Below, one piece after another: positions 9,253 through 46,360 of a stretch of DNA of 64,000 nucleotides. This DNA is from Endozoicomonas sp. G2_2 (lineage in GTDB: Bacteria; Pseudomonadota; Gammaproteobacteria; Nevskiales; Salinisphaeraceae). The stretch is from assembly GCF_017744135.1 (NCBI RefSeq), contig NZ_JAGHQU010000007.1, positions 124,001 to 188,000 of the forward strand. Direction: 5' to 3'. The position numbers were made by a program, and so were the translations under genes. Every line of letters begins with the position of its first letter. Positions within the stretch are counted from its first letter, which is position 1. The notes under the pieces were generated by a model. That model searched no databases and was not told where the DNA came from. It saw nothing but the letters and a program-made list of their open reading frames with translations.

Positions 9253-9352
9253 CATGGAAGCGATGCGCGGCCGTTGGGCCGACACGGTGTTATAGAGTTA
9301 CACGCCGCTTGCGTGCTCGAATGATTGCACCGTTCAATTGAGCACAATCGAT

Positions 9353-9775
9353 ATGAGCCAGAGCTACGAGATCAGCTGTGACTGTGGCCACGTCAAGATG
9401 ACGGCCCACGGTGCGCCCAAGTTGTCCCTTCATTGCCACTGTCGCAGCTGCCGCGAGCTGTATTCGGCAGACGTTCTGGGCCTGACCGGTTGGGATGAAG
9501 ACAAGGTCGATCTGCCGGACGAGTCCGAGCTGTATCACCATCAGATGGATGGCAAGGAAATGCACCGCTATGGCTGCCCGAAGTGCGGCATGATCATGTA
9601 CGGACGCCACAAGCCGGGGATTCCGGTCATCCGTCAGAACCTGTTCCGCAAGAACAATGGCGGGAAACTGCCGCCTGAACTGGCACCCACATTGCACTTG
9701 TTCTACGGCGAGCGTGTCCTTGATATCGACGACGATCTGGAAAAATGTGAGGACGGCTCGGCGATCGGTTTGTAG
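9353..9775 (+). CDS. GFA-family (glutathione-dependent formaldehyde-activating-like) protein
   Basis: GFA-family proteins are small zinc-binding beta-fold proteins; only a few have been tied to glutathione/formaldehyde chemistry, so the activity here is open. The 140-residue product has the expected metal ligands: CDCG near the N terminus, CHCRSC about 25 residues on, and CPKCGMIMYG in the second half. I chose the ATG at 9353; a TTG five codons upstream is the other option. Neither has a clear ribosome-binding site. The gene is isolated: a terminator lies before it and a GC-rich hairpin after it. Confidence 0.8.
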   Translation: MSQSYEISCDCGHVKMTAHGAPKLSLHCHCRSCRELYSADVLGLTGWDEDKVDLPDESELYHHQMDGKEMHRYGCPKCGMIMYGRHKPGIPVIRQNLFRKNNGGKLPPELAPTLHLFYGERVLDIDDDLEKCEDGSAIGL

Positions 9776-33773: not shown

Positions 33774-33847
33774 TGGGGAATCGTCTAACGGTAGGACTAC
33801 GGACTCTGACTCCGTCAATCCAGGTTCGAATCCTGGTTCCCCAGCCA
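33774..33847 (+). tRNA. tRNA-Gln (anticodon CTG)
   Basis: A 74-nt cloverleaf with encoded CCA. The acceptor stem TGGGGAA pairs with TTCCCCA; the D arm is GTCT/GGAC, the anticodon stem ACGGA/TCCGT with loop CTCTGAC (anticodon CTG, reading CAG), and the T arm carries GGTTCGAATCC. A perfect terminator follows at once. Confidence 0.96.
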
Positions 33848-33890
33848 TAGACACAAAAAACCCGCCACAAGGCGGGTTTTTTGTGTCTAT
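33847..33890 (+). terminator. Perfect 20-bp terminator hairpin after tRNA-Gln
   Basis: The arm at 33847-33866 and the arm at 33871-33890 are perfect inverted repeats with a four-base loop (ACAA); the core is CCCGCC/GGCGGG flanked by six A and six T residues. The right arm is also the start of the tandem repeat array. Confidence 0.93.
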
Positions 33891-34340
33891 CACTTGGGGT
33901 TCTAGATGAGAACCAACCGTTCGACGAGCGAGCAACGCTCGCGAGGACAGTTTGGCGTAGCCAAACTGGGCCCGGAGGGCCGAGCGGCGAAGCCGCGAGC
34001 AATCCTGGTCTTTCCGACCCCGGTGAAGCGATCCAAGCAAGGCGGGTTTTTTGTGTCTATCATTGGGGTTCCAGATGAGAACCAACCGTTCGACGAGCGA
34101 GCAAAGCTCGCGAGAACGGTATCGCAAAGCGATACCGGCCCCGAAGGGGTGAGCGGCGACGCCGCGAATAATCCTGGTTCTTCCGAACCACGTAGTGCGA
34201 CCGAAGCCCGCCAAAAGGCGGGTTTTTCGTGTCTATAACTCGGGGTTCCGATCGAGAGCCTGCCGGTTACACGAGCGCGCAACGCGCGAGGTACGCCGGC
34301 GCGCAGCGACGCAGCCGCGAATAAACCGAATTTCCGGTGA
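33871..34340 (+). repeat. Three diverged tandem copies of a multi-hairpin unit
   Basis: Copies start at 33871, 34041 and 34217 (periods 170 and 176 bases), each opening with GGCGGGTTTTT and GTGTCTAT; the third is degenerate after about 120 bases. Copies 1 and 2 share long identical blocks (for example GAGAACCAACCGTTCGACGA). The internal hairpins differ in sequence but keep pairing. One is CAGTTTGGC/GCCAAACTG at 33948-33968 against CGGTATCGC/GCGATACCG at 34117-34137; another is GGTC/GACC against TGGTTC/GAACCA. Each copy also has AATCCTGG, as in the 3' half of the tRNA-Gln T arm, and copy 2 ends in a new GCCCGCC/GGCGGG terminator. Open frames here are spurious. Confidence 0.8.
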
Positions 34341-35026: not shown

Positions 35027-35041
35027 TGGCATGTTTGTTGC
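35027..35041 (+). promoter_or_regulatory. Sigma-54 promoter candidate before nasT
   Basis: TGGCATGTTTGTTGC has the GG-N10-GC spacing of -24/-12 promoters and matches TGGCACG-N4-TTGC closely. The expected start of transcription is near 35053, 27 bases before the nasT ATG. Confidence 0.6.
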
Positions 35042-35079
35042 GGCTATTTACGCATCAGTTGTGCGGAGGTGTGCTGATC

Positions 35080-35649
35080 ATGCGTGTGCTGCTCGTGGAT
35101 CGTCATTCGGACCGGCTATCTGCACTGCGTGCGGTGATCTCCGAGGCAGGTTTTGATGTCGTGGCCGTGGTCAGCGAGGACGCCGATCTCTACGCGGCGG
35201 TCGATCGGCTGGCGCCGGATGCCGTGATCGTCGGCGCGGATTCCCCGTCACGCGACGTGCTCGAGGATGTGGCGACGCTCGGCGAACACTATCCGAAACC
35301 ATTGCTGATGCTGGCGTCGCGTGACGACCGGCATCTCATGGCGCGCGCTTCGGAAGCCGGCATCAGCGCTTACGTGATGGAAGGGCTGTCGCCGGCGCTG
35401 GTGCGTTCACTCGTCGATGTGGCGATGCGGCAGTGGCAGCAGATGGAATCGCTCAAGCGGGAACTCGCCGAGACCCGGGAAACGCTGGCCGATCGACAGG
35501 CCATCAACCGGGCCAAATGTCTGCTTATGGAACGCAGTGCCTTGAGCGAGAAGCAGGCCTACACCCGCCTGCGCAAGACCGCGATGGATCACGGTCTGCC
35601 GTTGCCGGAAATCGCGCGGCAGCTGATGGTGCGCGCAGCCGCCGACTAA
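35080..35649 (+). CDS. nasT: NasT-like response regulator with ANTAR RNA-binding domain
   Basis: NasT is a transcription antiterminator that binds a leader-RNA hairpin of nitrate assimilation operons when released by NasS. The 189-residue protein starts MRVLLVDRHSDRLSALRAVI, a pseudo-receiver domain with an Asp at position 54. A coiled-coil linker (QQMESLKRELAETRETLADR) and the three-helix ANTAR domain (INRAKCLLMERSALSEKQAYTRL to IARQLM) follow. The ATG at 35080 has GCGGAGG upstream; the frame is open about 40 codons further without similarity. It precedes the nitrate genes, and its expected target lies 250 bases downstream. Confidence 0.9.
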   Translation: MRVLLVDRHSDRLSALRAVISEAGFDVVAVVSEDADLYAAVDRLAPDAVIVGADSPSRDVLEDVATLGEHYPKPLLMLASRDDRHLMARASEAGISAYVMEGLSPALVRSLVDVAMRQWQQMESLKRELAETRETLADRQAINRAKCLLMERSALSEKQAYTRLRKTAMDHGLPLPEIARQLMVRAAAD

Positions 35650-35798
35650 AAGAATGCCGGCGCGCACGAATAGGGTGCGACGCGCACTTTGCGAATGCAC
35701 CGGTGCGGCTCGCGAGACCCACACCGCAGGGGTTTGAAGAACGCCCGTGCGGCGTCAATCCCTTGCGCCCGAACGGCCGCGCTGGCGACAGCGTGGGG

Positions 35799-35815
35799 TT
35801 GGCACGGTTCTCGCT
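35799..35815 (+). promoter_or_regulatory. Sigma-54 promoter of the nitrate assimilation operon
   Basis: TTGGCACGGTTCTCGCT is nearly the full -24/-12 consensus (TTGGCACG-N4-TTGCT, one mismatch in the -12 box) with exact GG-N10-GC spacing. The predicted start near 35826 gives a leader of about 80 bases before the terminator at 35908. A perfect palindrome GCACCGGTGC lies about 100 bases upstream (35697-35706), where an NtrC-like enhancer site could be, but it lacks the usual spacer. Confidence 0.7.
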
Positions 35816-35898
35816 ACGGATCATCTGCGCGTCTGTTCTCGCCGCTATGGGTCGATCTCGATCAAGCGATGCGGGCGGCGACCGCCACAATCTGATTG

Positions 35899-35912
35899 GG
35901 ACAACGAAGTCC
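35899..35912 (+). promoter_or_regulatory. ANTAR-type hexaloop hairpin (antiterminator)
   Basis: GGAC (35899-35902) and GTCC (35909-35912) close the six-base loop AACGAA, with A at loop position 1 and G at position 4 as required for ANTAR recognition. The 3' half of its stem is part of the left arm of the following terminator, so the two structures exclude each other. A second hexaloop hairpin, usual in this motif, could not be assigned with confidence upstream. Confidence 0.6.
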
Positions 35913-35958
35913 GGCTACGCATGCGTCGATTCGATACGCGTGCGGCCGGGCTTTTTTT
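35908..35958 (+). terminator. Leader terminator in front of nasS
   Basis: AGTCCGGC at 35908-35915 pairs with GCCGGGCT at 35945-35952 (one G-T), and the interior CGCATGCGT/ACGCGTGCG extends the stem to about 17 pairs around a short loop; seven T residues follow. It lies 44 bases before the nasS start inside the operon leader, so it must be bypassed for expression: the architecture of NasT-controlled attenuation. Confidence 0.8.
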
Positions 35959-36002
35959 ATGCGCGCAACAACAGCGCGGGCTGGCTGCAAGGAACACGCA
36001 CG

Positions 36003-37379
36003 ATGACGACATGGCATGAGGCAAACTTCGGACGCGGTGGGCGTAGCGCCAATGCCGGCCTGGAACGTACCCGGCTCACGCTTGGCTTCATTGCGCTTAA
36101 CGACTGCGCGCCGCTGGTGATGGCTCGCGAGGCGGGTTTCTTCGCAGCCGAAGGCCTCGACGTGACGCTGTCGCGGGAGGCCTCGTGGGCGGCGATCCGC
36201 GACAAGGTGGCGCTGGGCCTGCTTGATGGCGCCCAAATGCTCGCCGGTATGCCGATCGCCTCGACTCTTGGGGTCGGCGCGCCGCCACACGAGATGGTGA
36301 CAGCGCTTTCGCTGGGCCTGAACGGCAATGCGATCACGCTCTCGAGCGCGCTGTACGAGCGTATGCAGGCGGCCGATCCGCTGGCGATGTCGGCACGGCC
36401 CTGTAGTGCCGCCGCGTTGCGCCGTGTGATCGAAGCCGACCGTGGAGCCGGGCTCGCGCCGCTGACTTTTGGCATGGTGCATCCGGCCTCGGCCCACAAC
36501 TATCAGCTGCGCTATTGGCTGGCCGCCGCGGGCATCGATCCCGATCGCGACGTGCGCCTGATCGTGGTGCCGCCGGCCCGCATGGTCGCCAATCTGCAGG
36601 CCGGGCGCCTGGCCGGTTACTGCGTCGGCGAGCCGTGGAATCAGATGGCGGTGCGTGCCGGGCTCGGCCATGCCGTGATCACCGGCTACGAGATCTGGAA
36701 TAACGCGCCGGAAAAGGTGCTGGGCGTGACCCGCGAATGGGCCGAGGCCTATCCGCGCACCCATCGCGCCTTGATTCGCGCGCTCGTGCGTACCGCGGCC
36801 TGGCTCGACGGCCACGACAACCGCGAGGCAGCCGCGGAAGCGATTGCCGCGCCCGAGTATGTGGATGCGCCGGTCGAAGTGATCCGGCGTACGTTTACCG
36901 GCCGGTTCTGCTACCGGCCCGGCGCCGCGCCCAGGCCGGCGCCGTATTTCAACGTGTTCCATCGTCATGCCGCGACCTTTCCCTGGCGCTCGCATGCGAT
37001 GTGGTTCATCGCCGAAATGCTGCGCTGGGGCCAGCTCGGCGAGGCGATCGATGTGGCTGCCACCGCCGCCGGCGTCTATCGCCCGGATATCTATCGCGAA
37101 GCCGTCGCGCCGCTCGGCATCGCCTGTCCCGATCGTGATCACAAGACCGAGGGCGCGCACGCCGGGCCATGGTCGATTACGGCCCGCGAAGGCGGCGTGA
37201 TCGAGATGGCGTCGGATCGCTTTCTCGACGGCCGTGTCTTTGATCCCGCGGACCTGCCAGGGCATCTGGCCGATGCCGCACCGCGCATGCCGCCCGCGCT
37301 GCTCGAGCGCTTTGCTGCCCTCAATTCCACGCTGGAGGCGCCCGTGGCGGGCGCCCGCGCGGCGGCCGCTTACGGCTAG
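36003..37379 (+). CDS. nasS: NasS-like nitrate-binding sensor (NrtA/CmpA fold)
   Basis: A 458-residue protein of the NrtA/CmpA substrate-binding family: LGFIALNDCAPLVMAREAGFF at the start, then LLDGAQMLAGMPIASTLG, and a typical C-terminal region (FPWRSHAMWFIAEMLRWGQL). There is no signal peptide, and no ABC transporter genes accompany it (transport is by the MFS protein next door). I therefore call it NasS, the cytoplasmic nitrate/nitrite sensor that holds NasT inactive, rather than a periplasmic NrtA. The ATG has AAGGAACACGCACG upstream. It is the first gene behind the leader terminator, so it is made only when the attenuator is open. Confidence 0.82.
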   Translation: MTTWHEANFGRGGRSANAGLERTRLTLGFIALNDCAPLVMAREAGFFAAEGLDVTLSREASWAAIRDKVALGLLDGAQMLAGMPIASTLGVGAPPHEMVTALSLGLNGNAITLSSALYERMQAADPLAMSARPCSAAALRRVIEADRGAGLAPLTFGMVHPASAHNYQLRYWLAAAGIDPDRDVRLIVVPPARMVANLQAGRLAGYCVGEPWNQMAVRAGLGHAVITGYEIWNNAPEKVLGVTREWAEAYPRTHRALIRALVRTAAWLDGHDNREAAAEAIAAPEYVDAPVEVIRRTFTGRFCYRPGAAPRPAPYFNVFHRHAATFPWRSHAMWFIAEMLRWGQLGEAIDVAATAAGVYRPDIYREAVAPLGIACPDRDHKTEGAHAGPWSITAREGGVIEMASDRFLDGRVFDPADLPGHLADAAPRMPPALLERFAALNSTLEAPVAGARAAAAYG

Positions 37380-37427: not shown

Positions 37428-38795
37428 ATGGAACTTGCCAACAAGGCCACCCGCATCCGCCTGTTCGACTTCAAGTCGGTACAGATGCGCGCCTTCCATA
37501 TGAGCTGGCTGGCTTTTCATCTGTGTTTCTTTGGCTGGTTCGGCATCGCGCCGCTGATGGCCGTGGTGCGCGAGGACCTGAACCTCGACAAGTCGATGGT
37601 CGGCTCGACCATCATCGCCTCGGTGGCGATCACGGTGCTGGTGCGCCTGCTCATCGGCCCGCTGTGCGACAAGTTCGGCCCGAGAAAGACTTATTCGACG
37701 CTGCTGATTCTCGGCTCGATGCCGGTGATGTGCATCGGCTTTGCCGACAGCTTCGAAAGCTTTCTGATCGCGCGCCTTTGCATCGGCGCCATCGGTGCAT
37801 CCTTCGTGATCACCCAGTACCACACGGCCGTGATGTTCGCGCCCAATATCGTGGGCACCGCGAATGCCACCACTGCCGGCTGGGGCAATCTCGGCGGCGG
37901 TACCACCCAGATCGTCATGCCGCTGGTTTTTGCAGCGATCGTGTCGCTGGGCGTGAGCGAGGCGGTGGGCTGGCGCCTGGCCATGGTCGTGCCCGGCATC
38001 ATGCTGTTCCTGCTCGGCCTGGCCTACCTGAAGTTCACCCAGGATGCGCCGGACGGCAATTATTCGGATCTGCGCGCCGCCGGCAAGATCCCGCCGGCGG
38101 ACCGTGAGAACGGCGGCATGGCCAGCTTCAAGAAGGCGGCCTCCGACTATCGCGTCTGGGCGTTGTTCGTGGTCTATGCCGGCTGTTTCGGCGTCGAGCT
38201 GACGATCAACAACGTTGCCGCGATCTACTTCTTCGACAACTTCGACGTCAATCTGGAAACCGCCGGCCTCATCGCCGGCCTGTTCGGGCTGATGAACATC
38301 TTCGCCCGCACCATGGGCGGCTTCTTCTCCGATCTGTCGGCCCGTTATATGGGCCTGACCGGGCGCGTGCGCTTCCTGTTTCTCGCCATGTTCATCGAGG
38401 GCATCGCGCTGGTGGCCTTTTCGCAGATGGAAGTGCTGGCCACCGCGATCGCCACCATGATCGTGTTCAGTCTGTTCGTGCAGATGTCCGAGGGCGCGAC
38501 CTTCGGCATCGTGCCGTTCATGAACAAGAAGGCGCTGGGCGGGGTGAACGGCATCGTCGGCGCGGGCGGCAACGCGGGCGCGGTGCTCGCCGGCTTCCTG
38601 TTCAAGAGCGAATCGCTGTCCTACGGCCAGGGGCTGATGTTTCTCGGCTGTGCGGTGATGGTCTGCTCGTTCTTTGCCTTCTTCGTGCGCTTCTCGCCGG
38701 AGGTGCTGGCCGAGGAAAAAGCCGCTTTCGATTCCGCCTCTTCCGGCGACGACCCGATCAAGGCGCGCGGCGGCAACGAGCCGGAGCCAGCCTAG
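37428..38795 (+). CDS. narK: Nitrate/nitrite transporter, NarK/NasA type
   Basis: A 455-residue MFS protein with about 12 membrane helices. The nitrate signature of the NNP family is visible in AGWGNLGGGTTQIVMP, and the second copy region in GGVNGIVGAGGNAGAVLAG; the MFS loop reads GPLCDKFGPRKTY. As the genes around it assimilate nitrate, the role is nitrate uptake. It begins 48 bases after nasS. The cytoplasmic C-terminal tail is short and charged. Confidence 0.93.
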   Translation: MELANKATRIRLFDFKSVQMRAFHMSWLAFHLCFFGWFGIAPLMAVVREDLNLDKSMVGSTIIASVAITVLVRLLIGPLCDKFGPRKTYSTLLILGSMPVMCIGFADSFESFLIARLCIGAIGASFVITQYHTAVMFAPNIVGTANATTAGWGNLGGGTTQIVMPLVFAAIVSLGVSEAVGWRLAMVVPGIMLFLLGLAYLKFTQDAPDGNYSDLRAAGKIPPADRENGGMASFKKAASDYRVWALFVVYAGCFGVELTINNVAAIYFFDNFDVNLETAGLIAGLFGLMNIFARTMGGFFSDLSARYMGLTGRVRFLFLAMFIEGIALVAFSQMEVLATAIATMIVFSLFVQMSEGATFGIVPFMNKKALGGVNGIVGAGGNAGAVLAGFLFKSESLSYGQGLMFLGCAVMVCSFFAFFVRFSPEVLAEEKAAFDSASSGDDPIKARGGNEPEPA

Positions 38796-38808
38796 CCGGG
38801 GCACCGAG

Positions 38809-40074
38809 ATGAGCCAAACCACGCAACCCAAACTCGATCTGGTCGTGATCGGCAACGGCATGGCCGGGCTGCGCACGCTCGAGGAAGTGCTGGAGGCCGC
38901 ACCGGAACGCTACAACGTGACGGTGTTCGGCGCCGAGCCGCATGTCAGCTACAACCGCATCATGCTTTCGCCGGTGCTCGCGGGCGACAAGGCGTTCGAG
39001 GAGATCGAAACCCACGGCCGCGACTGGTACGAAGACAACGGGATAACGCTCTACACCGGCGAGGCCGTGGTCGATATCGACCGGCGCCGTCGGATGGTCA
39101 TCTCGGATACCGGCCGCGAGATCGGCTACGACCGCCTGTTGCTCGCAACCGGCTCCACGCCGTTCATCCTGCCCGTGCCGGGCCACACGCTCGACGGCGT
39201 GATCAGCTTTCGCGATATCGGCGACGTGCATCGCATGGTCGAAGCCAGCGAAAAGGGCGGCAAGGCTGTAGTGATCGGCGGCGGGCTGCTGGGCCTCGAA
39301 GCCGCCTACGGGCTGCACAAGCGCGGCATGGACGTGACCATCGTCCACCTCATGGACACGCTCATGGAGCGCCAGCTCGACCCCACCGCGGCCGATCTGC
39401 TTCAGTATTCGCTCACCCAGCGCGGTCTGTCGTTTCGCATGGGCGCGAAGACCGCGGCCATCCTCGGCGACGAAGCCGGCCGTGTGACCGGCCTGCGCTT
39501 CGACGATGCCGACGACTCCGAGATCGATGCCGATATCGTGGTCATGGCCGTGGGCATCCGCCCGAATGTCGAACTGGCGAAGACCGCCGGTCTGCACTGC
39601 GAGAAGGGCATCGTGGTCAACGACACGATGCAGACCTACGATCCGCGTATCTATGCGGTCGGCGAATGCGTCGAGCATCGCCATTCGGTCTATGGGCTGG
39701 TCGCGCCGCTTTGGGATCAGGCCAGCGTCTGTGCCAATCATCTGGCCTATCGCGGCCATACCCAGTACGAAGGCTCGGTGACCGCCACCCAGCTCAAGGT
39801 TACTGGCATCGATGTCTATTCCGCCGGCGATTTTTCCGACGCCGAGGGCACCGAAACGCTGACGTTTTCCGATGTGCGCCGTGGTGTCTACAAGCGCATC
39901 GTGCTGCGCGACGATCGCATTGTCGGCGTCGTGCTCTATGGCGATACCCGCGACGGCGGCTGGTATTTCAAGCTTATGCGCGAGGGCGCGGACGTCTCGG
40001 CTTTTCGGGATCTGCTGCTGTTCGGTCAGGCCTATCTCCCCGACGCAAAACCCGTGGACGCGGAGGCTGCCTGA
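38809..40074 (+). CDS. NirB-like FAD/NAD(P)H oxidoreductase (stand-alone)
   Basis: A 421-residue pyridine-nucleotide disulfide-type oxidoreductase that corresponds to the N-terminal part of NADH-nitrite reductase NirB. The FAD site is VVIGNGMAGLRTLEEV, the NAD(P)H site VVIGGGLLGLEAAYGL, and the second FAD motif YAVGECVEHRHSVYGLVAPL. The siroheme and [2Fe-2S] parts of NirB are missing. The following gene supplies a BFD-type cluster domain at its C terminus, so this protein probably passes electrons to nitrate reductase, like NasB in NasA/NasB systems. Start at 38809; the open frame upstream is inside narK. Its stop overlaps the nitrate reductase start (TGATG). Confidence 0.85.
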   Translation: MSQTTQPKLDLVVIGNGMAGLRTLEEVLEAAPERYNVTVFGAEPHVSYNRIMLSPVLAGDKAFEEIETHGRDWYEDNGITLYTGEAVVDIDRRRRMVISDTGREIGYDRLLLATGSTPFILPVPGHTLDGVISFRDIGDVHRMVEASEKGGKAVVIGGGLLGLEAAYGLHKRGMDVTIVHLMDTLMERQLDPTAADLLQYSLTQRGLSFRMGAKTAAILGDEAGRVTGLRFDDADDSEIDADIVVMAVGIRPNVELAKTAGLHCEKGIVVNDTMQTYDPRIYAVGECVEHRHSVYGLVAPLWDQASVCANHLAYRGHTQYEGSVTATQLKVTGIDVYSAGDFSDAEGTETLTFSDVRRGVYKRIVLRDDRIVGVVLYGDTRDGGWYFKLMREGADVSAFRDLLLFGQAYLPDAKPVDAEAA

Positions 40075-42749
40075 TGAACGCGGTGACCACACGCACCACC
40101 TGTCCCTACTGCGGCGTGGGCTGCGGCGTGAATGCCGTGGTCGATAACGATGCGGTCAGCGTGGCCGGCGATACCGCGCATCCCTCGAATCTCGGCAGCC
40201 TGTGCTCGAAAGGCACGGCACTGGCGGACACCGTAGGGCTGCAAGGCCGATTGCTGCATCCGGTGGTCGACGGCCGGCGGGCGAGCTGGGGCGACGCGCT
40301 GGACGAAGTCGCCGCCCGCTTCGGTGCGATCATCGCCGAACACGGCCCGGACGCTGTGGCCTTCTATGTCTCCGGCCAGCTGCTCACCGAGGACTACTAC
40401 GTCGCCAACAAGCTGATGAAGGGCTATATCGGCTCGGCGAATATCGATACCAACTCGCGGCTGTGCATGTCCTCGGCAGTGGCCGGCCACAAGCGCGGCT
40501 TCGGCGAGGACGTGGTGCCCGGCTGCTACGAGGATCTCGAAGTAGCCGACCTCGTCGTGCTGGTTGGTTCCAACACGGCCTGGTGCCATCCGGTGGTCTA
40601 TCAGCGCATCGTCGCCGCCCAAGAAAACAATCCGAACAAGAAACGGGTAGTGATCGATCCGCGTCGTACCGCCACTGCCGAAGGGGCGGACCTGCATTTG
40701 CCCATAGCGCCCGGCACAGACGTGCATCTGTTCAACGGCCTGCTGGCCTTCCTCGCCGAAAACGGCTTCGATAGCGATCTGCCGGGTGCGCGGGACGCCG
40801 TGGCCGAAGCGCGGCAGATGGGCGATCTCGAAGACGTCGCCGAAGCCTGCGGCGTGGACGCCGATACCCTCAAGGCCTTCTTCGAGCTGTTCGCGCAGAC
40901 CGAACGCACGGTCACGGTCTTCTCCCAGGGCGTGAACCAGTCCTCGGCGGGCACCGCCAAGGTCAACGCCATTCTCAACTGCCATCTGCTCACCGAGCGC
41001 ATCGGCAAGCCGGGCGCCTGCCCGTTCTCGATCACCGGCCAGCCGAATGCCATGGGCGGCCGCGAGGTCGGCGGCCTGTCGAGCACGCTGGCCGCGCATA
41101 TGGGCTTCGACGCGGCCGAGCGCGTACAGCGGTTCTGGGATTCGCCGGCGATCGCCGACAAGCCGGGCCTGAAGGCGGTGGAACTGTTCGAGGCGATCGA
41201 GGCCGGGCAGGTGAAAGCGGTCTGGATCATGGCCACCAATCCGCTGGTCAGCCTGCCGGACGCGGACCGCGCCAAACGGGCGCTGGAGGCCTGCGAGTTC
41301 GTAGCGGTCTCGGACTGCATGCGCCATACCGATACCGTCGACCGGGCCCACGTATTGCTGCCGGCCGCGGCCTGGGCGGAAAAGAGCGGCACGGTCACCA
41401 ACTCCGAACGCATCATCTCGCGCCAGCGCGACTTTCTGCCCATGCCGGGCGAGGCGAAGCCGGACTGGTGGATCGTCTGCGAAGTCGCGCGCCGGATGGG
41501 TTTCGGCACGGGTTTCGATTTCGACAGCGCGGCCGCGATCTTTCGCGAGCATGCCGCGCTCACCGTGTTCGAAAACAACGGCGAGCGCGTACTCAATCTC
41601 GAAGGGCTCGCGGATCTGTCGGATGCCGAATACGACACGCTCGAGCCGCTGCGTTGGCCGGTCTACAGCACCGAAGCGCTGCGCGCCGCGGGCGCGATGC
41701 CGGCGCGCACCGACAGCCGGCGCCTGTTCGCCGACGGTATCTATCCGACCGCGGACGGCAAGGCGCATCTGATCGCGGTCACGCCCCGCGGGCCGGCCAA
41801 TGCCCTCAGCGATCAATGGCCGCTGGCGCTGAATACGGGCCGCGTGCGCGATCACTGGCACACGATGACGCGCACGGCCAAATCCGCGCGTTTGTCCGCG
41901 CATATTCCGGAGCCGTTCGTGGAAATTCATCCGCGTGATGCCGAACGCTTCGGCGTGATCGATGGGGCGATCGCTACCGTTTCGACCGCGCTGGGCAAAG
42001 CGCATGTGCGAACGATCGTCAGCGATGGCCAGCGTGAAGGCACGCTGTTCGTGCCCATGCACTGGAACGACCAGTTCGCTGCAAAGGCCCGTGTGGGTGC
42101 GCTCGCCAACCCGGCGGTCTGCCCGATCTCCGGCGAGCCCGAGTTCAAGCACACGCCTGCCGCGATCGCACCGTTCGAGGCGGCCTGGCACGGCTTCATC
42201 CTCGCCAGCCGGCCGTTGCGGCTCAACGGTGAGGCGGGCATCGACTACTGGGTGAAGGTGCCGGGCGAGCGTTTCTACCGCTACGAGATCGCCGGTCTGC
42301 ACACGCCTGACGATTGGGCCGCGACCGCGCGCGGCTGGATCGGCGTGGGTGCACGCAGCGCCGACTGGGTAGAGGCCCACGACGAGGCGGCCGGGCGCTA
42401 CCGGGCCGCTCATTTCGACGCCGGCCATATCGAGGCCTGCGTGTTCATCGCGCCAGAGCCGGCCGCACTTCCGGATCGCAGCTGGCTGGCCAGCCTGTTT
42501 ACCGGCGAAGCGGTGGACGAGAGCGAACGCGCCGGTCTGCTTGCCGGCCGCCCGGCCGAGGCCAGCAAGGATGTCGGCCCGCAGATCTGCTCCTGTTTTG
42601 GCGTGGGTCGCAACACGATCCAGCGCGCGATCACCGAAGACGGCTTGGACAGCGTGGCCGCCGTAGGCGAAGCGCTGGATGCCGGTACCAACTGCGGTTC
42701 CTGCAAGCCCGAGATCGCCGCGCTCATCGACGCGCACGCCGGCGAATGA
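40074..42749 (+). CDS. nasA: Assimilatory nitrate reductase, molybdopterin catalytic subunit
   Basis: An 891-residue cytoplasmic molybdenum enzyme that reduces nitrate to nitrite. The N-terminal [4Fe-4S] ligands are C10, C13, C17 and C44 (TCPYCGVGCGVN and LGSLCSKG), followed by the bis-MGD domain (SANIDTNSRLCMSSAV carries the Mo-ligand cysteine region) and the C-terminal dinucleotide-binding domain (ALNTGRVRDHWHTMTRT). The last 60 residues are a BFD-type [2Fe-2S] domain (CSCFGVGR and NCGSCKPE), which receives electrons from a reductase. There is no twin-arginine signal, as expected for NasA. It is coupled to the upstream reductase by a TGATG overlap. Confidence 0.95.
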   Translation: MNAVTTRTTCPYCGVGCGVNAVVDNDAVSVAGDTAHPSNLGSLCSKGTALADTVGLQGRLLHPVVDGRRASWGDALDEVAARFGAIIAEHGPDAVAFYVSGQLLTEDYYVANKLMKGYIGSANIDTNSRLCMSSAVAGHKRGFGEDVVPGCYEDLEVADLVVLVGSNTAWCHPVVYQRIVAAQENNPNKKRVVIDPRRTATAEGADLHLPIAPGTDVHLFNGLLAFLAENGFDSDLPGARDAVAEARQMGDLEDVAEACGVDADTLKAFFELFAQTERTVTVFSQGVNQSSAGTAKVNAILNCHLLTERIGKPGACPFSITGQPNAMGGREVGGLSSTLAAHMGFDAAERVQRFWDSPAIADKPGLKAVELFEAIEAGQVKAVWIMATNPLVSLPDADRAKRALEACEFVAVSDCMRHTDTVDRAHVLLPAAAWAEKSGTVTNSERIISRQRDFLPMPGEAKPDWWIVCEVARRMGFGTGFDFDSAAAIFREHAALTVFENNGERVLNLEGLADLSDAEYDTLEPLRWPVYSTEALRAAGAMPARTDSRRLFADGIYPTADGKAHLIAVTPRGPANALSDQWPLALNTGRVRDHWHTMTRTAKSARLSAHIPEPFVEIHPRDAERFGVIDGAIATVSTALGKAHVRTIVSDGQREGTLFVPMHWNDQFAAKARVGALANPAVCPISGEPEFKHTPAAIAPFEAAWHGFILASRPLRLNGEAGIDYWVKVPGERFYRYEIAGLHTPDDWAATARGWIGVGARSADWVEAHDEAAGRYRAAHFDAGHIEACVFIAPEPAALPDRSWLASLFTGEAVDESERAGLLAGRPAEASKDVGPQICSCFGVGRNTIQRAITEDGLDSVAAVGEALDAGTNCGSCKPEIAALIDAHAGE

Positions 42750-42798
42750 TTCATCCCGATTTCATCGACAACGGTTCGACAACACGGATCGACACACC

Positions 42799-44718
42799 AT
42801 GAGCACACAGGATTTCGACGAAAGCCAGGAACGCTATCTCAAGGGCGTGACGGCCGGTCTGCATATCGCCCGCGGCGTGCCCGGCATGACCGGGCTGACC
42901 ACCGGCAAGCGGCTGCGCCCGGACGATTTTCATACCCAGGCCCGTATTCGCGCCCAGGCCATGGGCGGCGAGCTGACCGGCCAGGAAGAAGCGAAGGCCG
43001 ATCTCAACCCCAACGACATGTGGAACGAGATGGTCCAGCTGGCAGACCTCGGCGAGTATCCGAAGGGCGGGGACGTGTTCCTGATGAAAGGCCGCGGCAT
43101 GTTCTATGTCGCCCCCAATCAGGACAGCTACATGTGCCGGCTGCGCATGCCCGGCGGGATCTTTTCGTCACACCAGTTCCGCGCGGTGGCAGATCTGGCC
43201 GACACCTATGGCGGCAGCTATACCCACGTCACCACCCGCGCCAACCTGCAGATTCGCGAGATCGGCCCGAAGGATCCGGTCAACGTGCTCATGGGCCTGC
43301 AGGATGTCGGCATCATCAATCAGGGCAGCGGCGGCGACAACATCCGCAACATCACCGGCAGCCCGCTCGCAGGGATCGACCCGGATGAGTTGATCGACGT
43401 CACCCCGTACTGCCGGCAGATGCACCACCACATTCTCAATCACCGCGAGCTCTACGGTCTGCCGCGCAAGTTCAATATCGCGTTTGATGGCGGGGGGCGG
43501 ATCAGCGCGCTGGAAGGCACCAACGATATCGGCTTCTCCGCCGTGCTGCCGAAGGCCGACGGGCCGCTGCCACGCCGGCCGTATTTCCGTATGGGGCTGG
43601 GCGGCATTACCGGCCACAAGGACTTTGCCCGCGATACCGGCGTCATGCTCAAGCCCGAGGAATGCGTGGCCGTCGCCCATGCCGTGCTGCATGTCTTTCT
43701 TGCCAACGGCGACCGCACCAGCCGTGACAAGGCACGCCTGAAATACGTGCTCGATCGCTGGGGCTTCGACAAGTTCATGCGCGAGGTACAGAAACAACTG
43801 CCGTTCACGCTGCGCCGCTATCCGCTGTCGCGCTGCGAGAAACGCGCACCGGTAGACAAGGCCGGCCATGTCGGTATTCACGACCAGGTCGAAGGCAAGC
43901 AGTATGTCGGCATCGTGTTGCCGGTTGGCCGGCTGACTATTCCGCAGATGCACGGCCTGGCCGATCTTGCCGATCGCTATGCCGACGCGAAGATGCGCAC
44001 CACGGTCTGGCAGAACCTCGTGCTGGGGAACGTGAAGAAGTCGGACATGAAGACGCTCGTGGCCGGGATCGAGAAGCTCGGCCTGCACGTAAACGCCAGC
44101 CCCGCGCGTACCGGCATGGTGGCCTGTACCGGAAGCTTCGGCTGCAAGTTCGCCAATGCCGAGACCAAGGGCAATGCGCTCAAGCTCGTCGATCATATCG
44201 AGGACAAGCTCGAGCTCGACGAGCCGCTGAATATCCATATGACGGGCTGCCCGAACTCCTGTGCCCAGCACTATGTCGGCGATATCGGCCTGCTCGGTGC
44301 GCGCGTGGCCGACCCGGACGCCGAGGACCCGGACGAAGCCGATCAGGTGGACGGTTTCCATGTCTATATCGGCGGCGGGTACGAGGACGAGGAAGGCATC
44401 GCCCGTGAGCTCGCGACATCGATTCCGGCCGTCCATCTGAATGCCTATCTCGAGAACCTGCTCGGCCTGTATCTGGACGAGCGCCACCAAGGCGAGCGGT
44501 TTGTCGCCTATGCCCGGCGCCAGGATATCGACGAGTTCAAACAGCGGATTGCCGAACGCTTGGAAAAGGCCGCGGCGGTCCAGCGTGAATCCGAGGAAAA
44601 GGCGTACTCCGAAGCCGAGGCCAAAGCGGACACGCCGGAAAAAGCCAAGACCGCCCGCGACAAAGCCGCACAAGATGACTACGACCGGCAGCCCGCCCGG
44701 ACCAAGAACACCGCCTGA
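42799..44718 (+). CDS. NirA-type siroheme nitrite (or sulfite) reductase
   Basis: A 639-residue siroheme/[4Fe-4S] reductase of the ferredoxin-nitrite/sulfite reductase family. It has two repeats of the ferredoxin-like half-domain (HVTTRANLQIREIG and KMRTTVWQNLVLGNV) and the cluster ligands C443 and C449 (CTGSFGC), C484 and C488 (CPNSC). In this operon nitrite to ammonia is the expected reaction. The last 65 residues are a charged, Ala/Lys/Glu-rich helical tail not part of the fold. The start at 42799 is chosen by homology; the ribosome-binding site is weak. Confidence 0.9.
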   Translation: MSTQDFDESQERYLKGVTAGLHIARGVPGMTGLTTGKRLRPDDFHTQARIRAQAMGGELTGQEEAKADLNPNDMWNEMVQLADLGEYPKGGDVFLMKGRGMFYVAPNQDSYMCRLRMPGGIFSSHQFRAVADLADTYGGSYTHVTTRANLQIREIGPKDPVNVLMGLQDVGIINQGSGGDNIRNITGSPLAGIDPDELIDVTPYCRQMHHHILNHRELYGLPRKFNIAFDGGGRISALEGTNDIGFSAVLPKADGPLPRRPYFRMGLGGITGHKDFARDTGVMLKPEECVAVAHAVLHVFLANGDRTSRDKARLKYVLDRWGFDKFMREVQKQLPFTLRRYPLSRCEKRAPVDKAGHVGIHDQVEGKQYVGIVLPVGRLTIPQMHGLADLADRYADAKMRTTVWQNLVLGNVKKSDMKTLVAGIEKLGLHVNASPARTGMVACTGSFGCKFANAETKGNALKLVDHIEDKLELDEPLNIHMTGCPNSCAQHYVGDIGLLGARVADPDAEDPDEADQVDGFHVYIGGGYEDEEGIARELATSIPAVHLNAYLENLLGLYLDERHQGERFVAYARRQDIDEFKQRIAERLEKAAAVQRESEEKAYSEAEAKADTPEKAKTARDKAAQDDYDRQPARTKNTA

Positions 44719-44794
44719 GCCTGAATGGCTCAAGACACGCCCAACAGCCTTGCGCCGCGTCGCCCGAGCGCCGGCGTGCAGAACGAGGTAGCAC

Positions 44795-46360
44795 ATGCCC
44801 ACACAAGTCGATCTGATTCCCGAGGACGCGCCGTTTCCGGCCGAGCAGCGCGAATGGCTCAACGGCCTGATCGCCGCGCTGGCCGGCTGGGAAGGCTCTC
44901 TCGGCGGCGCCGACCAGGGCGGCGGCGAGGCCAAGGAATCTTTTCCCTGGCACGACCCGGCCATGGAAATGGACGAGCGCATGGCACTGGCCGAGGACAA
45001 GCCGCACGAGCGTCAGCTGATGGCCGCGATGGCCCAGCTCGACTGTGGACAGTGCGGCTATCTGTGCAAGACCTATGCAGAGGCCATCGCCTTCGAAGGA
45101 GAGGATCTCAACCGCTGCGTGCCCGGCGCGAAGGAGACCGAGCGTAAGCTCAAGGAGCTGGTCGCCGAGCACGAGGCCGACAAGCCGGCCGACGACGCCG
45201 AAGCGGAACCGAAGCCCGAACCCAAGCCGAAGAAGAAAGGCCCGCTCGGCACGCGTGATAACCCCTACATGGCCAAGCTCAAGTCGAGCACACCGCTCAA
45301 TGCCGAGGGCTCGACGAAGGATACGCGCCACGTGGTGATCGATCTCGGCGATTCGGGCATCGAATACGAGGCCGGGGATTCGATGGGCATCTTTCCCGAG
45401 AACGACCCGCGTACCGTCGATGCCATCCTCGCCGATATCGAGGCCTCCGGCGGCGAGAAGGTGAAGGCGCCGAGCGGCGAGAACAAGCTGCTGCGCCAGG
45501 TGCTGCTCAAGGAAGTGGATATCACCAAGCCCAGCGACGAAGTGATCGCGCTGCTGGCCGAATCCGCGGCGGATACCGAAGAGGCCGAAGACCTGCGCAT
45601 GCTCTCCGAGCGTGGTGCCGAAGAAGGTCAGAGTCTGCTCGAGCTGCTGCGCGTTTACCCGAGCGCGCGGCCCGACGTGCAGAAGCTGGTGGACGAACTC
45701 GGTCCGCTGCAGCCACGGCTGTATTCCATCGCCTCATCCGCGCGCAAGCACCCGAACGAAATTCATACCACCGTGGCGGTGGTGAAAACCGCGGTCTACG
45801 GCCGCGGCTACAAGGGCGTGGCATCAACGTTCCTGGCCAAGCGCCTGTCGCGCAACGGTGAGGTGCCGGTCTATATCCAGCGTTCCGACGAGTTTCGCGT
45901 GAACGTCGATCCCGATCACCCGGCGATCATGATCGGCCCCGGTACCGGTATCGCGCCGTTCATCGCCTTTCTGCAGGAACGCGAGGCGCGCGGCGACGCC
46001 GGGCGCAACTGGCTTTTCTTCGGCAACCCGGAAAGTGCCAAGGACCATATCTATCGCGAGCAGCTCGAACAATGGCGCAACAACGGGCTGATCAGCCGCC
46101 TGACGCTGGCCTTCTCGCGCGACCAGCAAGACAAGGTCTATGTCCAGAACCGCATGCGCGAACAGGCGCGCGAATTCTGGGCCTGGCTGGAGGCGGGCGC
46201 GGTGATCTATATCTGTGGCGACGCCGAGCGCATGGCCAAGGACGTGGACGCCGCGCTGCACGACATCGCGGCCGAGCAGGGCGGCATGAGCGAAGCCGAA
46301 GCCCGGCGCTATGTGGAAACGCTAGCCTCCGAGCATCGCTATCTGCGCGACGTGTATTGA
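44795..46360 (+). CDS. CysJ-like flavoreductase with N-terminal Fe-S domain
   Basis: A 521-residue protein. Residues 80-115 form a cluster-binding motif (C84, C87, C91, C108 in LDCGQCGYLCKTYAEAI and NRCVPG) like the small FeS domain of RnfB. After an acidic/proline-lysine linker (about 125-150) comes a CysJ-type FAD/NADPH reductase: RLYSIASSARKHPNE (FAD), MIGPGTGIAPFIAFLQER and GDAERMAKDVDAALHDI (NADPH). The flavodoxin domain of CysJ is absent. The likely job is to carry electrons from NADPH to the siroheme reductase encoded directly upstream. The ATG has GAGG upstream. It is the last gene of the operon and ends seven bases from a convergent gene. Confidence 0.87.
   Translation: MPTQVDLIPEDAPFPAEQREWLNGLIAALAGWEGSLGGADQGGGEAKESFPWHDPAMEMDERMALAEDKPHERQLMAAMAQLDCGQCGYLCKTYAEAIAFEGEDLNRCVPGAKETERKLKELVAEHEADKPADDAEAEPKPEPKPKKKGPLGTRDNPYMAKLKSSTPLNAEGSTKDTRHVVIDLGDSGIEYEAGDSMGIFPENDPRTVDAILADIEASGGEKVKAPSGENKLLRQVLLKEVDITKPSDEVIALLAESAADTEEAEDLRMLSERGAEEGQSLLELLRVYPSARPDVQKLVDELGPLQPRLYSIASSARKHPNEIHTTVAVVKTAVYGRGYKGVASTFLAKRLSRNGEVPVYIQRSDEFRVNVDPDHPAIMIGPGTGIAPFIAFLQEREARGDAGRNWLFFGNPESAKDHIYREQLEQWRNNGLISRLTLAFSRDQQDKVYVQNRMREQAREFWAWLEAGAVIYICGDAERMAKDVDAALHDIAAEQGGMSEAEARRYVETLASEHRYLRDVY

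Follow-up and report, generated by a model that had tools for sequence, protein, structure and literature searches.

In the window, the 64,000-nucleotide stretch of DNA analyzed here from a salt-loving bacterium, a presumed nitrate assimilation operon very probably stands behind a two-gate attenuator, composed of a sigma-54/NtrC promoter and a terminator controlled by the ANTAR protein NasT. From its anatomy, the leader terminator is probably switched off by a protein that nitrate releases, and we infer that the operon is transcribed via NtrC/sigma-54. The features concerned were as follows.

35027..35042, + strand: sigma-54-like element TGGCATGTTTGTTGCG before nasT (2 mismatches)
35080..35649, + strand: nasT, with a receiver-like domain and an ANTAR domain (PF03861, 64 bits)
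35663..35679, + strand: NtrC-like palindrome CGCAC-N7-GTGCG, putative enhancer site 1 (2 mismatches to TGCACN7GTGCA)
35683..35699, + strand: NtrC-like site 2, 20 bp beyond site 1 (2 mismatches)
35800..35816, + strand: predicted sigma-54 promoter TGGCACGGTTCTCGCTA, conserved in 10/10 Salinisphaera
35826..35886, + strand: 5' leader domain, where a distal P1 would lie; no A1/G4 hexaloop in the window
35887..35894, + strand: ACAAYNNG box, common to ten species
35899..35912, + strand: predicted P2 antiterminator hairpin GGAC[AACGAA]GUCC (A1 and G4 in 10/10)
35906..35958, + strand: predicted intrinsic terminator, left arm including the 3' arm of P2
35952-35958: T run of the terminator, seven T
36003..37379, + strand: nasS-like nitrate sensor gene, NrtA/CmpA type (PF13379, 290 bits)
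37428..46360, + strand: narK-, NirB-N-, nasA-, nirA-, and cysJ-like genes, presumed operon
from 37428: narK-like gene
from 38803: FAD/NAD NirB-N-like protein
from 40071: NasA-like molybdoenzyme
from 42796: NirA gene
from 44795: CysJ-like flavoprotein gene

A receiver-ANTAR NasT and an NrtA-like NasS were encoded together, as in a NasS-NasT system, and a single protein in the genome scored above the cut-off for NtrC, at 702 bits; RpoN, an ANTAR protein (NasT), and a NasS homologue were likewise found once each. The window belongs to a Salinisphaera genome, the five nearest named relatives of its NasS all being from that genus (69 to 80% identity). Within a same-genus set of 14 genomes (the window's own plus 13 others searched), a NasT match below 1e-50 was present in 10, the window's included; the nasT-nasS regions of those ten Salinisphaera genomes (L016 to L025, the window being L016) are the ten species compared below. 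The nasT match of L025 (1359-1923) ran in two frames, through an assembly error or a broken gene. Elsewhere in the window, a tandem array (33868-34186; 169-bp unit, 1.9 copies, 86% matches) directly followed a tRNA gene (33774-33844); each unit started with the terminator-like GGCGGGTTTTTT, and a third, diverged copy seemed, by eye, to come next.

The first-pass annotation had described a near-consensus -24/-12 element, and this description stood, with TGGCACGGTTCTCGCT at 35800-35815 differing by one mismatch from TGGCACN5TTGCW. At up to 2 mismatches this pattern occurred at 14 sites in the window against 29 expected, so the motif by itself is no proof; support came from conservation and not from motif score, TGGCA[CT]G, followed by GC at the -12 spacing, being present in the intergenic regions of 10/10 Salinisphaera, where the surroundings could hardly be aligned. 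Transcription is predicted to start at 35826 by what we take to be the usual -12 rule, and therefore 73 nt of 5' leader would lie ahead of the P2 hairpin. Upstream of the promoter, palindromes like TGCACN7GTGCA, which we take to be the NtrC consensus, were found at up to 2 mismatches in 10/10 species against 1.8 expected, kinship being ignored in this figure; in L024 they lay about 400 bp away. The NtrC site quoted for Paracoccus in the accessible text of one paper is similar to this consensus, not identical (PMC5424462). A -24/-12 element, upstream enhancer-like sites, and genome-encoded NtrC and RpoN were thus found together, as for an NtrC/sigma-54 promoter. A -24/-12 pattern also stood 50 to 56 nt before nasT in 8/10 Salinisphaera; sigma-54 promoters have been predicted for NasT-type genes of beta- and gammaproteobacteria (PMC12316311), and nasS and nasT transcripts were reduced in a P. 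stutzeri ntrC mutant (PMC8443478), both according to excerpts of these papers. A general promoter and terminator scan of the window, with rules that do not include sigma-54, returned neither a promoter nor a terminator, the terminator probably being missed because its stem is bulged. A perfect TGGCACN5TTGCA (9681-9696) occurred within a coding frame (9338-9775), with 0.53 expected for a slightly looser pattern.

Behind the promoter, a four-pair hairpin with the hexaloop AACGAA had been noted, keeping A1 and G4 and placing its 3' half in the left arm of a terminator. All of this agreed with the comparison, in which A at loop position 1 and G at position 4 were present in 10/10 Salinisphaera, as was a terminator excluding P2; the two structures share the strand GUCC and are mutually exclusive. 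The seven T residues and the shared arm of the terminator likewise stood, and the 17 pairs attributed to it became 16 core pairs by hand and 21 in the minimum free energy fold, which includes pairs of the T run. Folding, proposed as a check at first pass, gave a stable terminator containing the 3' arm of P2 (35905-35962; -30.6 kcal/mol, z -4.65; 1/200 shuffles as good). The placing of nasT 250 bases upstream is correct from the hairpin; from the promoter the distance is 150 (nasT end, 35649). An A1/G4 P2 overlapping a terminator is one mark of an ANTAR target RNA of the dual-hexaloop type. In the ten species, 40/40 cells of the P2 stem were standard pairs; the third pair was A-U, G-C, or G-U, and its 3' base still paired within the terminator with one exception. 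P2 covariation amounted to this one pair and was equalled by 33/500 shuffles, and two-sided change was absent from the basal terminator pairs across the ten species. RNAalifold on the ten leaders favored the terminator, which is consistent with the terminator as the default state. Searched against the leader, Rfam gave no match at gathering score; at E ≤10 the sole match was antisense (12.7 against a cut-off of 70 bits).

The first-pass remark that just one of the ANTAR hairpins can be made out clearly proved right for this species, and six of its nine congeners had a distal P1. The window leader contained, apart from P2, no ANNGNN-looped hairpin of at least 3 pairs; at the distal-P1 place the stem GGUC[GAUCUC]GAUC could be drawn by eye. 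Around the ACAAYNNG box, no hairpin common to the ten species was found by eye. An A1/G4 P1 of at least 4 pairs was carried by L019 and L021 to L025 (6/10 species); L016 (the window), L017, L018, and L020 had no ANNGNN match for P1 upstream of P2. Shuffling gave an expectation of 0.035 to 0.103 per leader (P = 3e-5 for 6/10 species), and the enrichment held after two near-duplicates were dropped (5/8, P = 1e-4). The six P1 hairpins started 13 to 20 nt from the predicted +1 and ended 21 to 45 nt before P2, outside the linker of 5 to 12 nt expected between P1 and P2, and in several Salinisphaera folds P1 capped a longer stem. By eye, L017, L018, and L020 showed heptaloops that carry A1 and G4. 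The simplest reading is that P1 was lost within Salinisphaera. Because EutV needs two hairpins and the window has no A1/G4 P1, the response of the window leader to NasT may be weak or absent.

Leaders in other genera were sought with covariance models. Model R1, built from the ten Salinisphaera leaders only, scored 73.7 bits at the leader in the window's own genome, with all other places at ≤23 bits and taken as chance. At E 0.01, R1 matched in 20/274 class genomes, with 19 places outside Salinisphaera; seven of these, all in the best ten, lay at nasT, nasS, narK, or nirB homologues, and 12 (L062, L064, and L069 to L078) had no tblastn match to nas proteins. Inspection of L062, L064, L069, and L070 found no A1/G4 hexaloop hairpin, and L071 to L078 were excluded from later counts. 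A widened model (R2) was built from alignment A3 (22 matches, 13 from outside the genus), its sources omitting L020 to avoid an antisense match; alignment A2 was rejected, with 7/35 matches antisense or off the leader. At E 0.05, R2 matched 44/369 class genomes and 52/85 order genomes, and only the best places (≤30 per search, class and order) were taken for inspection. Of the newly fetched class loci outside R2 building, 19/22 had a nasT-, nasS-, or nirB-type gene by tblastn, though some such matches may represent transporter paralogues of nasS, and P1 was present in 16 of these 19. R2 leader matches scored 43 to 72 bits in the ten NasT-bearing same-genus genomes (9/10 in the training set); of the four without a strong NasT, three had leader matches of ≤32 bits and one had none.

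Altogether, 41/49 examined loci were nas-linked (tblastn 1e-8), and an A1/G4 P2 was present in all 41 nas-linked leaders, partly by construction. A four-pair P1 no more than 90 nt from P2 occurred in 31/41 nas-linked leaders against 3.8 expected by shuffling, and one of five pairs in 28/41 against 1.5; the models contain no P1 pairing, although a proximal hairpin reaches into the first dozen of their unpaired positions, and the shuffle controls ignore kinship among leaders. Eight loci had no nas link, with P2 in 4 and a P1-type hairpin in 5 (0.7 expected); either some of these P1-bearing loci are truncated nas loci or the P1 test is less specific than it seems. When hexaloops were surveyed in 39 loci (near-duplicates L067 and L116 dropped from the 41), 30 of 44 hairpins of at least 5 pairs combined A1 with G4, and no other combination exceeded 3. 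These 30 fell into two registers, 14 at 3 to 14 nt and 16 at 27 to 53 nt from P2, with P1 in both registers in 6/39 leaders. Three A1/G4 hexaloops (distal at 39 to 53 nt, proximal at 3 to 9 nt, and P2) were found in L061, L066, L079, L086, L088, and L090, which adjoin narK, nasS, or nirB homologues of other Gammaproteobacteria. A sigma-54-like pattern stood within 160 nt before P2 in 24/41 nas-linked leaders (raw count). According to PMC7496416 (in part), a motif of two hairpins was known for NasT systems before; a third hairpin did not appear in the available portions of the EutV and NasR papers (PMC3369931, PMC8934654, PMC7496416), nor among the matches listed by a text search, a weak test.

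With 29.2 bits, the receiver domain of NasT fell narrowly short of its Pfam threshold of 30.2 bits. Aligned with EutV, NasT kept the RNA contacts R142, K149, E160, Y164, and M172 (5/7 identical), with Gln for K143 and Arg for K147 (residue roles from the accessible part of PMC8934654), which makes it a candidate ANTAR protein for binding the leader. Gly occupied the position of the EutV phospho-Asp in all nine Salinisphaera NasT that were aligned, as well as in the second L025 piece; among a further twelve NasT, nine had Asp, two Ala, and one Glu. Gly at this position would fit control through NasS binding, not phosphorylation. NasS had a nitrate transport protein as its best match (E 9e-81), was the sole protein of its type found in the genome, and showed no signal peptide by eye. 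In Paracoccus, nitrate-dependent NasS-NasT dissociation and NasT-RNA binding have been shown (PMC3795266, seen in excerpt), and by analogy we infer a nitrate-dependent release of NasT from NasS here.

Between nasT and the nasS match lay 314 to 622 nt in the ten species, with promoter, leader, and terminator in between. The leader separated nasT from nasS in 10/10 Salinisphaera against 0/24 other loci scored; where those loci had nasT and nasS on one strand, the gap was ≤63 nt in 24/24, a count that omits six further NasT loci (L026 to L029, L034, and L035) that could not be scored. With nasS 3' of the leader, the sensor that restrains NasT would therefore be expressed through the NasT-controlled terminator, and the response may be self-limiting, NasS being a product of the operon that NasS restrains. 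Among the papers listed by text searches, none dealt with such feedback for NasS-NasT or with Salinisphaera nitrate assimilation.

The mechanism that we propose would run as follows. Under nitrogen limitation, phosphorylated NtrC at 35663-35699 would activate sigma-54 RNA polymerase at 35800-35816, as the sites and genes suggest. By default, judging from the anatomy and from studied relatives, the transcript would fold into the 35906-35958 terminator and transcription would end. On the same grounds, nitrate or nitrite would free NasT from NasS, and NasT would hold GGAC[AACGAA]GUCC, withholding the 3' arm that the terminator requires and allowing read-through, which would yield NasS, NarK, and the reductases with their partners. 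As the terminator follows nasT but precedes nasS, the NasS so made would recapture NasT and limit the response. Since a consensus P1 is absent here, NasT would have to rely on P2 only, or on P2 together with a degenerate second hairpin; in the portion of PMC8934654 available, the minimal motif that EutV binds is a single hexaloop. The first-pass interpretation of a double gate gains support from the conserved promoter, the NtrC-like sites, P2, the terminator, and the nas-linked R1 matches, and under it the operon would need nitrogen limitation and nitrate jointly.

If the terminator served only to end nasT transcripts constitutively, and its hexaloop were a coincidence, the sigma-54 promoter would be the sole control of the operon. 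Intergenic terminators are common and a four-pair hairpin is small, but A1 and G4 were invariant in ten species, the same hairpin-in-terminator recurred at nas loci of other families, and the terminator lay 3' of the operon's own promoter in 10/10 species, so that a constitutive terminator would stop that promoter too; we regard this explanation as very improbable. Attenuation by a leader peptide or riboswitch, rather than by a protein, is scarcely credible. The nasS frame was open from 35433 through promoter and terminator to 36002 in the window, but stops occurred in that frame in 9/9 relatives, and the leader peptide was rejected on the ground that the upstream-open frame exists in the window only; a riboswitch is opposed by the lack of any same-strand Rfam match at E ≤10.

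An attenuator that is real but degenerate, having lost P1 and with it efficient antitermination, would leave nitrate control weak and nitrogen status dominant, which we consider unlikely. The four leaders without an ANNGNN hairpin before P2 (L016, the window, with L017, L018, and L020) speak for it, as does the roughly 12-fold weaker binding of NasR to a single P2 than to P1P2 given in the available text of PMC7496416. However, P2 and terminator were equally strict in the four P1-less and the six P1-bearing species, 10/41 nas-linked leaders elsewhere were without P1 by a like test, and in P. denitrificans transcription became severely deficient when one leader hairpin was changed but was relatively unaffected by a change in the other (PMC5424462, in the part seen). 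A functional two-gate attenuator is our preferred reading.

It is quite possible, if short of probable, that gammaproteobacterial NasT leaders form a distinct ANTAR RNA class, in which a distal hexaloop lies some 40 nt ahead of the terminator hairpin, a proximal one is optional, and the short-linker two-hairpin rule is not obeyed, and that in Salinisphaera this class shrank to P2 alone in some species and its leader came to lie between nasT and nasS, so that NasS, as a product of the operon, limits its own expression without receiver phosphorylation. The series of leaders with three hexaloops, with distal hexaloop and P2, and with P2 alone could test why ANTAR antitermination needs two hairpins, the NasS-NasT gene order here predicts negative feedback, and the new covariance models find such leaders, for which Rfam offered no matching family in the window.

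The double gate of nitrogen status and nitrate is a known logic, described in Klebsiella and Paracoccus, in a new host. As far as the accessible text goes, Klebsiella oxytoca nasF (NasR) likewise has its nas operon under both general nitrogen control and nitrate-responsive ANTAR antitermination, with hexaloops that carry A1 and G4 (PMC5424462, PMC7496416); there, however, NasR itself senses nitrate and two hairpins are present, whereas the system here divides the task between two proteins, NasS and NasT, and has no recognizable P1. Paracoccus denitrificans nasTS-nasABGHC shares the NasS-NasT pair and has NasT-leader RNA binding and NtrBC control in the excerpts at hand (PMC3795266, PMC5424462). 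There, nasT and nasS precede the leader as a cotranscribed pair, and the NtrC site that was tested lies ahead of nasT, whereas here leader and sigma-54 promoter lie between the two genes. As for Enterococcus faecalis EutV, the P2 hexaloop, with A1 and G4, sits in the left base of the terminator. EutV systems, in the portions of the papers available, have linkers of 5 to 12 nt, need both hairpins, lose antitermination on the addition of 20 linker nt, and have a phosphorylated Asp54 (PMC3369931, PMC8934654), in contrast to the distal or missing P1 and the Gly found here. Read from sequence, the departures from the known systems are a P1 that appears missing or distal, a nasS that lies inside the presumed operon, and a receiver apparently without its Asp.
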